Shown: positions 2,194 to 5,000 of the stretch, in pieces
Numbering within the stretch: the first letter of the stretch is position 1
Layout: each line of letters opens with the position of its first letter
Assembly (NCBI RefSeq): GCF_023023025.1
Contig: NZ_CP095481.1
Span: forward strand, 8,321,001-8,385,000
Direction: 5' to 3'
Length of the DNA: 64,000 nucleotides
Origin: Amycolatopsis sp. WQ 127309
GTDB lineage: Bacteria; Actinomycetota; Actinomycetes; Mycobacteriales; Pseudonocardiaceae
Translations under genes and position numbers: made by a program
Notes under the pieces: model-generated
Told to the model about the DNA's origin: nothing
Database searches by the model: none
Seen by the model: the letters and a program-made list of their open reading frames with translations, nothing else

Positions 2194-2709
2194 ATGAAGG
2201 TCCGAGACGCCACACCGGACGACGCAGCCGCCTGCGCCGCCATCTACGCGCCCTACGTCACCGACACGGTGATCTCCTTCGAAACCGAACCACCCGACAC
2301 CGAAGAAATGACCCGCCGCATCGCCGGCGCGCACGCCTGGCTCGTCCTCGAGGAGGACGGACAGGTACTGGGGTTCGCCTACGCCGGCCCGTTCGCCAAA
2401 CGCGCCGCGTACCGGTGGTCGTGCGAGACGAGCATCTACCTGGAACCAGGCCGACGCCGCACAGGCGCCGGACGCGCGTTATACGAGGCGTTGTTCAGCA
2501 GGCTGCGGGAACGCGGATACCGGCGGGCGTTCGCCGGGATGGCGATGCCGAACGACGCGAGTGCCGGACTGCACCGCGCACTGGGGTTCGAGCCCGCCGG
2601 CGTCTACCGGAAGGTGGGCTGGAAGCACGGAGCCTGGCGTGACGTCGCCTGGGTCCAGAAGGACCTCTCGGACGACGAGGGAGCGCCAGATCCCGGTTAC
2701 TTGACATAA
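2194..2709 (+). CDS. GNAT N-acetyltransferase, phosphinothricin acetyltransferase-like
   Basis: A 171-residue GNAT enzyme. It has the hallmarks of the PAT/bar subfamily, which acetylates phosphinothricin, methionine sulfoximine or related amines using acetyl-CoA: FETEPPDTEEM near residue 30, the acetyl-CoA loop RRRTGAGRALY near residue 90, and MPNDAS followed by LHRALGFEPAG and VGWKHGAWRDVAW toward the C-terminus. Substrate is inferred from family only. ATG 2194 is preferred over the in-frame ATG 2176 because homologues begin right at the beta strand MKVRDAT and because the promoter fits a leaderless start. The stop codon TAA (2707-2709) and the last residues lie inside the dif site. The divergent XRE-cupin gene is the likely regulator. 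Confidence 0.85.
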   Translation: MKVRDATPDDAAACAAIYAPYVTDTVISFETEPPDTEEMTRRIAGAHAWLVLEEDGQVLGFAYAGPFAKRAAYRWSCETSIYLEPGRRRTGAGRALYEALFSRLRERGYRRAFAGMAMPNDASAGLHRALGFEPAGVYRKVGWKHGAWRDVAWVQKDLSDDEGAPDPGYLT

Positions 2710-2726
2710 TGTACATTATCGGCACT
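2699..2726 (-). other. dif: dif chromosome-dimer resolution site (XerCD target)
   Basis: The 28 bases have the dif geometry 11-6-11: left arm ACTTGACATAA, centre TGTACA, right arm TTATCGGCACT. Read on the minus strand, the 24 bases from CCGATAAT to GTCAAGT agree with the actinobacterial dif consensus as I remember it; only outer positions of the weaker arm differ. The core 2706-2719 is a perfect 14-base palindrome. XerC and XerD would recombine here during FtsK-driven terminus segregation. The site overlaps the stop codon of the GNAT gene. Confidence 0.85.
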
Positions 2727-3192
2727 AGGGCAGTGCCTGCGACGGACACCCAAGAGGGGCGAAAGAAGCCGAACTCGGCGGGGGTTCTTCGTCAGGACGG
2801 CTTCTCCTGAGGGAACGGCCGGGAGTGAAGCGTCATGCGTCGTCGTACAGAGACTCCCGGGCCGCAGAGGCGCCCAGGGAGGTGTTCCGTAGGGCCGCGA
2901 GAGACATCCCCTGGAGCTGCAGACCGATGTCCCGTCACCCGACCGTAAAACGTCACGGTGACGAAACTAGAGTACGCAATGTTAGGCCGAACGCGCGTCG
3001 TCGGGACTTGACGGGCTCATCGGGCGCCATCCGGAGATCTGCTCCCGGCTGGCTCAAGCCTGGACGCCCTGCGGGTGCCGGTCGAACATGTGTGCGTATG
3101 CCCCGCAGTGTGTCAGATGTGCCGCTTGAGGTCTCGAAGGCCGTCAGACGAGATCCGGGATCCCCCGGGAGCGGATCCCTGACGATTCCGAC
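2727..3192. other. Intergenic stretch between the two dif-like sites
   Basis: No credible gene is visible here; the open frames lack family motifs and plausible ribosome binding sites. The only local structure noticed is the inverted repeat CGTCAC-G-GTGACG at 2951-2963, followed by an AT-richer patch (about 2964-2990) that could contain a promoter pointing either way. Spacing between the centres of the two dif-like sites is about 496 bases. Confidence 0.5.
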
Positions 3193-3224
3193 ATTTCATG
3201 CATAATGGCAATTATGCATGAAAT
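3193..3224. repeat. Perfect inverted repeat with dif-like 11-6-11 architecture
   Basis: Arms of 14 bases (3193-3206 and 3211-3224) are perfect reverse complements around GGCA. Counted as a Xer site, 3195-3222 is TTCATGCATAA, centre TGGCAA, then TTATGCATGAA, so the inner ATAA...TTATG positions match a dif site while the outer arms and centre differ from the dif at 2699-2726. A further CCG/CGG pair extends the symmetry after a two-base bulge (3188-3190 with 3225-3227). It lies 53 bases before the ATG of a tyrosine recombinase and could be its recombination site or its operator. Confidence 0.75.
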
Positions 3225-3277
3225 CGGACGGGACCCGGTGAGCGAAATTGTCGGTGCCGTACGGTACAAGATCCACC

Positions 3278-4240
3278 ATGAAGGTTTCCGAGGCCCAGCA
3301 AGCCTTCTTCGCCGCCCGCCGGCCGCGCAAGGACTCGCCGCACACCACTGACGCCTACCGCCGGGATCTGGCCGGGATCACCACTCTCCTGGTTTCGGAG
3401 CTCGGCCGCCCCGCCGAGGACCTGGCGGTCGCCGACCTCACCGGGCAGGCGCTCCGGTCGGTGTTCGGGGTGTTCGCGGACGGGCACGCGAAGAGCTCGG
3501 TGCTGCGGGCCTGGTCGACGTGGAACCAGTTCCTGACGTTCTGCGTGGCGGACGGGCTGCTGGCGGGCAACCCGATGGGTGCGGTGGCGCGGCCGCGGAC
3601 GCCGGCGTTGACGCCGAAGCCGTTGCGGGGTGAGGAAACCCCGGAGCAGCTCCTGTCGGCGGCGGCCGCCGGTTCGCGGCGGGCGCGGGACCCGTGGCCG
3701 GAGCGGGACGTGCTGGTGATCGCGCTGGGGCTGGTGGCGGGGTTGCGGGCGGCGGAGATGCGGGCGCTGACGCCGCGATCGCTGGTGGGGCGCGCCGGTG
3801 AGCTGCGGTTGCACGTGAAGGGGAAGGGCAGCCGGGATCGGTCGATCCCGGTGCAGCCGGTGCTGGCGGAGCTGATCGAGCGGTACCGGGAGTCGTGCCG
3901 GGTGCGGTTCCCGGGGGTGCGGTCCTCCCCTGGTTCGCCGTTGCTGGTGGACCGCGCGGGCGAGCCGATCGGCCGGGGCGCGCTGGAGTACCTGGTGAAG
4001 TCGTGTTACCGGGGCGCGGGTCTGCACGACCGGGTGCCGGTGGGTGCGAACCTGCACGCGTTGCGGCACACGTTCGCGACGCGCTTGGCGGAGGACGGCG
4101 CGACGGCGTCGGAGATCATGGCGCTGCTGGGTCACGCGAGCTTGGCGACGAGCCAGAACTACATCGAGGCGACAGGCAGGGAACAGCGCGCGGCGGCGGC
4201 GAGCAACCGCACGTACCGCGCCCTGGACGGCTTGAGCTGA
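3278..4240 (+). CDS. Xer-like tyrosine recombinase next to dif
   Basis: A 320-residue site-specific recombinase with the two-domain XerC/XerD plan: a SAM-like N-terminal core-binding domain (residues about 1-90) and a C-terminal catalytic domain. All catalytic residues are present: Arg157 (GLRAAEM), Lys181 (VKGKG), His260-x-x-Arg263 (HALRH), His286 (LLGHAS) and the nucleophile Tyr295 (NYIEA). Size is that of Xer proteins rather than phage integrases. I chose ATG 3278 (start of MKVSEAQQAFF); a TTG at 3248 is possible. Actinobacteria normally keep xerC and xerD elsewhere, so this may be an additional recombinase dedicated to the flanking sites, or one of the pair relocated. No other mobile-element genes are visible beside it. 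Confidence 0.88.
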   Translation: MKVSEAQQAFFAARRPRKDSPHTTDAYRRDLAGITTLLVSELGRPAEDLAVADLTGQALRSVFGVFADGHAKSSVLRAWSTWNQFLTFCVADGLLAGNPMGAVARPRTPALTPKPLRGEETPEQLLSAAAAGSRRARDPWPERDVLVIALGLVAGLRAAEMRALTPRSLVGRAGELRLHVKGKGSRDRSIPVQPVLAELIERYRESCRVRFPGVRSSPGSPLLVDRAGEPIGRGALEYLVKSCYRGAGLHDRVPVGANLHALRHTFATRLAEDGATASEIMALLGHASLATSQNYIEATGREQRAAAASNRTYRALDGLS

Positions 4241-5000
4241 CCGGCGGTTCGGGCAGTTTCGGCGGTTCGGGCAGTTTCTGCGGGTCGGGGCTGTCGAGTG
4301 AGCCTGGTCAGCGGAGTTCTGCGGCCTGTGGGGCATCACCGGCGCGAGCGGGCCAGTCGTGCAGGCCGCGCGAACGGCCCGTTCGCGCGTTATCGGGCAC
4401 GAACGGGCCGTTCGCACCACGGTGGGGGCCGCGATCCATGCATGCCAAGAGCAGACAGCGCCTGGCCGGCTGTCCCCCGTCAGCTTCCCGATGGGCGTCG
4501 GAGTTCCCTGTGCGAACGCGCCGAGCCGGGCGTGCCGCTCGGCTCTCTTGAGAGGCACCTCACGGGAGTGGCCTTCGTGTGCGCTACCCCAGCTCTCGCT
4601 CCCCTGGCCAGTCCATGCCATGCCCCGGTGCGCGGGCGACTCTATCTCGCACGAGCGGCCCATTCACGCCAAGCCGTGTGTGCGAATGGGCCGCTCGTGC
4701 GCCACATCAGACACGAACGGGCCACTTGTGCCATGCCCGAGGACGCGAGTGGCCCTCTCGCGCTTGGGCCGGTGCACGAGCGGCCCGTTGGCTCCCTGTC
4801 GCACGCGCGAACGGGCCATTCGCGCCGGCCCGAGCGCGAGAGGGCCACTCGCGCTCTGCCCCTACGCGCCAAAGGGCCAGTCGTGACTGCCGTGCACGTG
4901 TCCGCTTGAGCGTTTACTCACACACGAACGGTCGCTCCGCCCTGCGTGCGCTTGAGCGCTACCTCGCACGTGAACAGGCTTCAGGGCACGCCGTCGTGGG
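4241..5000. repeat. Non-coding region with a cluster of GGGCC-centred palindromes
   Basis: About 760 bases without a credible gene. It contains at least six short inverted repeats built on the same plan, GC-rich arms around GGGCC or GGCCC: 4367-4389 (arms CGCGCGAACGG, perfect), 4400-4414, 4744-4762, 4805-4825, 4832-4856 (arms GAGCGCGAG, perfect), plus the long hairpin 4648-4701. Weaker relatives occur near 4343-4361 and 4870-4885. The arms alternate between GAACGG, GAGCGG, GAGTGG and GAGAGG variants, like a family of repetitive extragenic palindromes that has diverged in place. Confidence 0.7.
4648..4701. repeat. 18-bp perfect inverted repeat hairpin
   Basis: Arms at 4648-4665 and 4684-4701 are exact reverse complements (left arm begins CGCACGAGCGG), separated by an 18-base loop. 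Each arm is itself one copy of the GGGCC-type palindrome of this region, so two copies in opposite orientation make a very stable stem. There is no T-tract, so it is not an obvious terminator. Confidence 0.75.

Follow-up and report, generated by a model that had tools for sequence, protein, structure and literature searches.

In the replication terminus of this Amycolatopsis chromosome a third Xer-type tyrosine recombinase is encoded beside a symmetric dif-like site, and the sequence comparisons make it reasonably likely that the two form a single-recombinase Xer system next to XerCD/dif. The recombinase, for which we coined the name Xer3 in this analysis, probably uses the symmetric site alone. 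The anatomy of the locus, its conservation and the linkage of the site both to Xer3 and to dif were observed directly in the genomes compared. Bacterial chromosomes are generally assumed to have a single dimer-resolution system, either XerCD/dif or one recombinase instead.

The window, i.e. the whole 64-kb stretch of DNA that was analyzed (G000:C1:8321001-8385000), belongs to an 11.13-Mb genome assembled as a single contig. It holds the three parts of the locus:

2699..2726, + strand: dif, XerC/XerD-type site (sequence and genome-wide search)
3193..3224, no strand: symmetric dif-like site of Xer3, with a 28-bp core at 3195-3222 and a perfect 14-bp inverted repeat around GGCA
3278..4240, + strand: xer3, third Xer-type tyrosine recombinase, 320 amino acids (PF00589, catalytic residues, tree)

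The terminus locus and the Xer3 protein

The dif sequence in the window is ACTTGACATAA-TGTACA-TTATCGGCACT. A genome-wide search allowing up to 3 mismatches over the 23-base core gave a single match, at G000:C1:8323701. With dnaA at 2697282 in the 11133454-bp circle, dif is 5.63 Mb off, which is 50.5% of the way round, and the locus is therefore the terminus. The symmetric site, ATTTCATGCATAAT-GGCA-ATTATGCATGAAAT, consists of two 11-bp arms (3195-3205 and 3212-3222) flanking the 6-bp centre TGGCAA (3206-3211). It lies 496 bp from dif, centre to centre, which agrees with the earlier note, where a symmetric site with dif spacing had been placed about 0.5 kb from dif. By arithmetic with equal base frequencies, 64 kb should contain a perfect 14-bp inverted repeat, with the spacing fixed at 4 bp, about 0.0002 times. 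The xer3 gene extends from an ATG at 3278 to a stop at 4240 and starts 53 bases past the palindrome, as had been stated before. An in-frame TTG is present upstream at 3248; the family alignment begins at the ATG. No structured RNA was found in positions 2600-3400 by searching Rfam at E ≤ 1. In the intergenic region after xer3 (4340-4960) a palindrome like CGAACGGGCCGTTCG was seen by eye in many short variants.

Xer3 matched PF00589 at 3.9e-20 in a profile search. The residues R157, K183, H260, R263, H286 and Y295 were invariant in 15 aligned sequences (that of the window and 14 others, down to 37% identity) and aligned with the catalytic residues of XerD in the structure database, where XerD structures were clearly matched by sequence. 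The R-K-H-R-H-Y set noted earlier is indeed complete, and by profile match and catalytic residues together Xer3 is a tyrosine recombinase. It scored below the NCBIfam equivalog cut-offs for XerC (141.9 vs. 335.15 bits), XerD (115.2 vs. 329.6 bits), the archaeal-type XerA (79 vs. 220 bits) and XerS (45.5 vs. 267 bits). Searching the genome with the XerD model returned one gene above the cut-off (348.8 bits), an XerC-like gene labeled as such by elimination (259.7 bits), Xer3 (114.8 bits) and then seven weaker matches. Counted with this model, the xer genes of the genome are XerD-like, XerC-like and Xer3, which bears out the description of the protein as a third Xer. In a tree of 53 rows, rooted on four XerC/XerD-like rows and computed with a tool that warned of long branches, the 49 Xer3 rows were separate from those four with support of 100/100.

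Conservation of the site and its pairing with dif

Xer3 was found at E ≤ 1e-40 in 71 of 80 Amycolatopsis genomes and in 215 of the 390 genomes of the family. It occurs in 23 of the 46 family genera, with one match per genome among the genomes listed except G164, which has two. The strict palindrome GCATAAT-N4-ATTATGC was present in 82 of the same 390 genomes; all 82 had Xer3, and none of the 175 genomes without Xer3 had the palindrome. This distribution supports the proposal of one protein for both like arms, and carries no probability since the genomes counted share ancestry. The strict spelling was missing from 133 of the 215 Xer3-positive genomes, which counts against the single-recombinase reading; the loci examined in such genomes mostly had other arms, e.g. 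GGATAAT or one worn arm. Within Amycolatopsis, 69 of the 71 Xer3-positive genomes carried the strict palindrome, G043 and G197 had variants, and it occurred in none of the nine Xer3-negative genomes.

Seventy Amycolatopsis loci were compared for the structure of the site, from all 71 Xer3-positive genomes of the genus but G002. All 70 had a site that matched at least 17 of the 20 arm positions, which speaks against a chance occurrence. Perfect 11-bp arms were found in 50 of the 70 loci; the exact palindromy claimed for the arms holds in the window, and among relatives it is common without being invariant. In the genus the arms are conserved (TNATGSATAA) and the centre is variable. Sites in another family of the class, such as TTTCATGCATAA-ACCGTG-TTATGCATGA, have non-palindromic 6-bp centres, and the plasmid sites of Mycobacterium and Mycolicibacterium read xATGGATAA-N6-TTATCCATx, often with mismatches. 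Because these 6-bp centres, in the other family and on plasmids, are non-palindromic, the layout of the site is 11-6-11, as in dif. One strict site was found in the window's own genome, opposite dnaA, and one in each of 30 further genomes searched whole; three genomes of the genus had two (G002, by contig overlap, G042 and G044). The Xer3 system has the anatomy of a single-recombinase Xer/dif system, with a dedicated like-armed site, a short centre, one copy per chromosome and a position near the terminus.

Scanning 11.3 million contigs for TSATGSATAAT-N4-ATTATSCATSA yielded 104 loci, with about 0.2 expected by chance (arithmetic). These palindromes were found regardless of dif, and a dif-type site was present 214 to 1192 bp away in 71 of them; elsewhere in the 2.10 Mb scanned there were only 2 dif-type matches. 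For the other 33 palindromes the stretch examined, which was short for some, contained no dif-type site, and these count against the pairing. A dif-type site was within 1.4 kb of the site in 69 of 70 Amycolatopsis loci and in 32 of the 40 loci from other genera and families (L101-L140). The initial strict palindrome scan missed asymmetric versions of the site, which were recovered by an arm-based scan that gave sites in 33 of these 40 loci; the remaining seven (L106, L118, L121-L124, L127) lacked both site and dif over the stretch examined, L121 ending at a contig end. In the wider class the pair was found in 7 of 29 loci, and the 22 without it, 17 of which had no site, also count against the pairing. 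Among the listed loci of Pseudonocardiaceae type, the site usually lies to the TTATCGG side of dif. It is on the opposite side in Rhodococcus (L148, L169, L186, L200), in L131-L134 and in the mycobacterial loci L164, L174, L181, L198 and L207, and not on that opposite side in Mycolicibacterium L216. The same five mycobacterial loci have, beside the palindrome, a dif-like sequence TTGACCATAA-N6-TTATCGG, mismatched in some, with a longer left arm and variable centres.

The linkage to the gene is looser. Xer3 was not encoded in the stretch examined at 49 of the 104 palindrome loci. Thirty of these 49 genomes were searched whole, and 21 had Xer3 elsewhere, scoring at least 342 bits against at most 125 for the XerC/XerD-like genes. 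The nine palindrome genomes without Xer3, which count against the association, were eight mycobacterial-type assemblies and one Lachnospiraceae MAG. A strict palindrome in a Lachnospiraceae MAG (L160), with no Xer at E ≤ 1e-20, may reflect chance or contamination. In 13 of the 21 genomes xer3 was on the same contig as the palindrome, 4.5 kb to about 530 kb apart. The gene is about 530 kb away in Actinoalloteichus caeruleus (L213), with the palindrome 535 bp from dif, and about 415 kb away in Saccharopolyspora kobensis (L167), with the palindrome 600 bp from dif. Since the gene can be up to 530 kb off while the palindrome stays near dif, the position by dif is what is conserved. The steady neighbor of the palindrome is dif, at about 0.2-1.3 kb, more than xer3. 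The question posed in the earlier note, whether the recombinase always travels with the palindrome and dif, is answered in the negative for the gene (about 415 and 530 kb away in the two cases above). The related view of gene and site as a module fits the plasmids described below, seven of eight having the site no more than about 50 bp before the gene, and less so the chromosomes, where the palindrome tracks dif more than the gene.

Plasmid copies, Kribbella and the origin of the symmetry

Relatives of Xer3 with <60% identity were found by tblastn on 62 of 72,556 plasmid records, 60 of which are from Mycobacterium, Rhodococcus, Mycolicibacterium, Dietzia, Prescottella and Corynebacterium. Large plasmids of actinobacteria are probably served by related modules of gene and site. 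In seven of the eight plasmids inspected, all from Mycobacterium or Mycolicibacterium, a site precedes xer3 by no more than about 50 bp; L315 is the exception. The M. crocinum plasmid (199 kb, read whole) has a strict palindrome with the centre TCTACA at 265 bp from a weak dif-like sequence, which scores 16/18, below the threshold used elsewhere, and is the sole basis for site-dif pairing on a plasmid. A second, imperfect site (centre CATTCG) lies upstream of xer3, 17 kb from the strict palindrome, and the mycobacterial contigs G440:C71 and G433:C3 also carry both kinds of site. The different centres suggest that the strict site would be the crossover site and that the imperfect one may serve regulation. 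Four Xer3 copies were present in one draft genome of M. nebraskense (G438, the genome of L187), perhaps on several plasmids. A phage origin of Xer3 was considered and rejected, with only 8 of 50,697 phage records matching at E ≤ 1e-10, at 25-29% identity.

Kribbella, which we take to belong to another order than Amycolatopsis, has xer3 in 15 of 38 genomes. Because the Kribbella gene nests inside an Amycolatopsis-like clade in the tree, it was probably acquired by transfer. The site is 255-1193 bp from a dif-type site in all 10 loci examined out of these 15 genomes. The outer bases of the Kribbella dif differ from those of the Amycolatopsis dif, and homology between the two groups covers site and gene, the dif flank and spacer being non-homologous beyond short stretches.

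Pairs of Xer3-type sites occur on a few contigs. One Mycobacterium contig (L161) has two sites 2.3 kb apart with centres TCTACA and TCCGCA, possibly a trace of an inserted segment. In L379 (G042:C55:1-16000) a second strict palindrome, with the centre TGAGCA, is 1323 bp from a dif-type site with the centre TCTATG, and an imperfect site follows 3.4 kb further; the contig is 176 kb and perhaps a plasmid. No element flanked by two sites of equal centre was seen, the pairs in L161, L379 and some mycobacterial contigs having unequal centres.

The 4-bp centre was also followed on the gene tree of the 70 Amycolatopsis sequences. Read in orientation it requires 24 changes, compared to 14 without orientation, which corresponds to about 10 flips, such as GGCA/TGCC and CACT/AGTG, mostly GGCA/TGCC within a clade of 27. 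In 26 members of this clade the arms are perfect to 13-24 bp, and the outer arm bases covary. The flips look like the footprint of exchange in antiparallel register. As proof of Xer3 recombination they were rejected, since unrelated hairpins nearby also have loops in mirrored versions (with a shared stem for CCAGA/TCTGG, with different stems for TAGA/TCTA), in a control that is thin, the palindrome being the sole hairpin at one place in 40 of 40 genomes. According to the accessible part of PMC8604942, template switching by polymerase homogenizes the arms of inverted repeats and inverts their spacers. Because of this, and because unrelated hairpins flip too, the perfect symmetry and the centre flips are more likely products of template switching than proof of recombination. 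REP-like hairpins TCGTGAGTG...CACTCACGA with loops TAGA or TCTA were observed about 2.2 kb after the xer3 start in L002, L019 and L021; quite different hairpins occupy this place in other species. Some assemblies (L194 and L220; L365 and L368, on G002 contigs C75 and C82) break about 110 bp from a palindrome that is present on both contigs, which could be caused by mixed centre orientations in the culture.

Precedents, proposed function and rival readings

By analogy of site design, the nearest precedent for Xer3 appears to be XerL of the Legionellales, as characterized in the accessible part of PMC9765430. There XerL works without a partner on a dif whose arms have perfect dyad symmetry, and it is the dimer-resolution system of its organism; its gene is >400 kb from the site, and a plasmid-borne recombinase with an adjacent site occurs in Coxiella (PMC9765430). 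The systems are alike in having one recombinase, uninterrupted inverted-repeat arms, a possibly distant gene and plasmid copies. Unlike XerL, Xer3 is found in a genome that also has an XerD-like gene, an XerC-like gene and a normal dif. The XerS/difSL system of streptococci and lactococci, in the accessible text of PMC5357621, resembles Xer3 as a single recombinase whose gene is directly beside the site in one module. It differs by its 31-bp site with a difSL centre of 11 bp, compared to 6 bp in the Xer3 site, and by the low XerS score given above. Helicobacter and Campylobacter have XerH/difH, likewise a single-recombinase system with the site near the gene (PMC9765430, accessible part), to which Xer3 is weakly related (66.2 bits with the profile; XerH structure 5jjv). 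With XerC/XerD-dif it shares the catalytic residues, the 11-6-11 layout and the inner ATAA/TTAT of the arms; XerC and XerD are two proteins on unlike arms, whereas Xer3 is below both of their cut-offs and outside their clade. A literature search, with subscription papers mostly outside its reach, gave no description of a third Xer with a symmetric second site in actinobacteria, as the earlier note had also held. In the accessible text of the review PMC5357621 the strings 'actinobact' and 'third' do not occur, and that of Kono et al. (PMC3025954), who predicted dif in all 66 actinobacterial genomes, mentions no second site.

If the preferred single-recombinase reading is correct, Xer3 would bind the two like arms of the site. 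Sister sites, on a dimeric chromosome or a multimeric plasmid, would synapse in parallel, as set by the non-palindromic centre, and Xer3 would exchange strands across the 6-bp centre and separate the copies. Binding, catalysis and the role in resolution are what we infer here from comparative data. The recurrence of the pair by dif in other actinobacteria points to a second system for resolution, acting when replication ends. Against the preferred reading, no recombination product was observed, and if two separate systems at 0.5 kb from one another both acted in the same synapse, each would undo the exchange of the other and leave the dimer unresolved. The close pairing of site and dif implies either that both need the same spot or that they act on one another.

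In the latter case Xer3 at the symmetric site might partner XerCD at dif in one composite locus, its synapse aligning both dif sites or the exchanges alternating. We think this unlikely, though several observations agree with it: the pairing recurs in several families, with the site to either side of dif, and also beside dif-type sites with other arms or centres, as in L164, L174, L181, L198 and L207 (214-524 bp) and in G042:C55 (1323 bp); the strict palindrome of the M. crocinum plasmid is 265 bp from its weak, below-threshold (16/18) dif-like sequence; and a common terminus alone would not require a distance of <1.3 kb. However, the spacing ranges from 214 to 1323 bp, the side of dif varies between groups, and the invariant catalytic residues suggest strand exchange and not binding only. 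Furthermore, G440:C71 and G433:C3, two mycobacterial contigs read whole that carry both palindrome and xer3, have no dif-type site, with one palindrome 221 bp from a contig end. That many actinobacterial termini, and perhaps some plasmids, would have a composite two-site locus in which, for example, Xer3 synapsis licenses or cancels dif exchange is in our estimate unlikely.

The palindrome could also be an operator at which Xer3 or another regulator controls xer3. It ends 53 bases before the start codon in the window, an imperfect site often precedes the predicted start of mycobacterial genes by about 30-100 bp, and the upstream site of the M. crocinum plasmid, with the centre CATTCG instead of the TCTACA of the strict site, looks like autoregulation. 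The palindrome at dif nevertheless persists with the gene 0.4 to 530 kb away, and operator use therefore cannot explain its conservation there. We consider this reading very improbable and rejected it as the main role, since the site remains by dif where the gene does not. Improbable as well is a mobile element, domesticated or residual, IMEX-like or derived from a plasmid, that inserted near dif. The relatives on 62 of 72,556 plasmid records point to it, as do the patchy distribution in Kribbella (15 of 38, nested in an Amycolatopsis-like clade) and the double sites in L161 (2.3 kb apart) and L379 (3.4 kb apart). Against it, half of the family's genera (23 of 46) have Xer3, all genomes listed except G164 gave a single match, dif itself is intact, and the double sites differ in their centres. 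The suggestion in the earlier note of a remnant of an element integrating at dif found no support, given this conservation; descent of the module from a plasmid module is possible.

On the single-recombinase reading, which we favor, many actinobacteria apparently retain a whole single-recombinase system next to an intact dif. If Xer3 is active, it and XerCD could undo each other's exchange, and their control then becomes a question. For genetic work in Amycolatopsis, Xer3 and its site might be useful as a tool.
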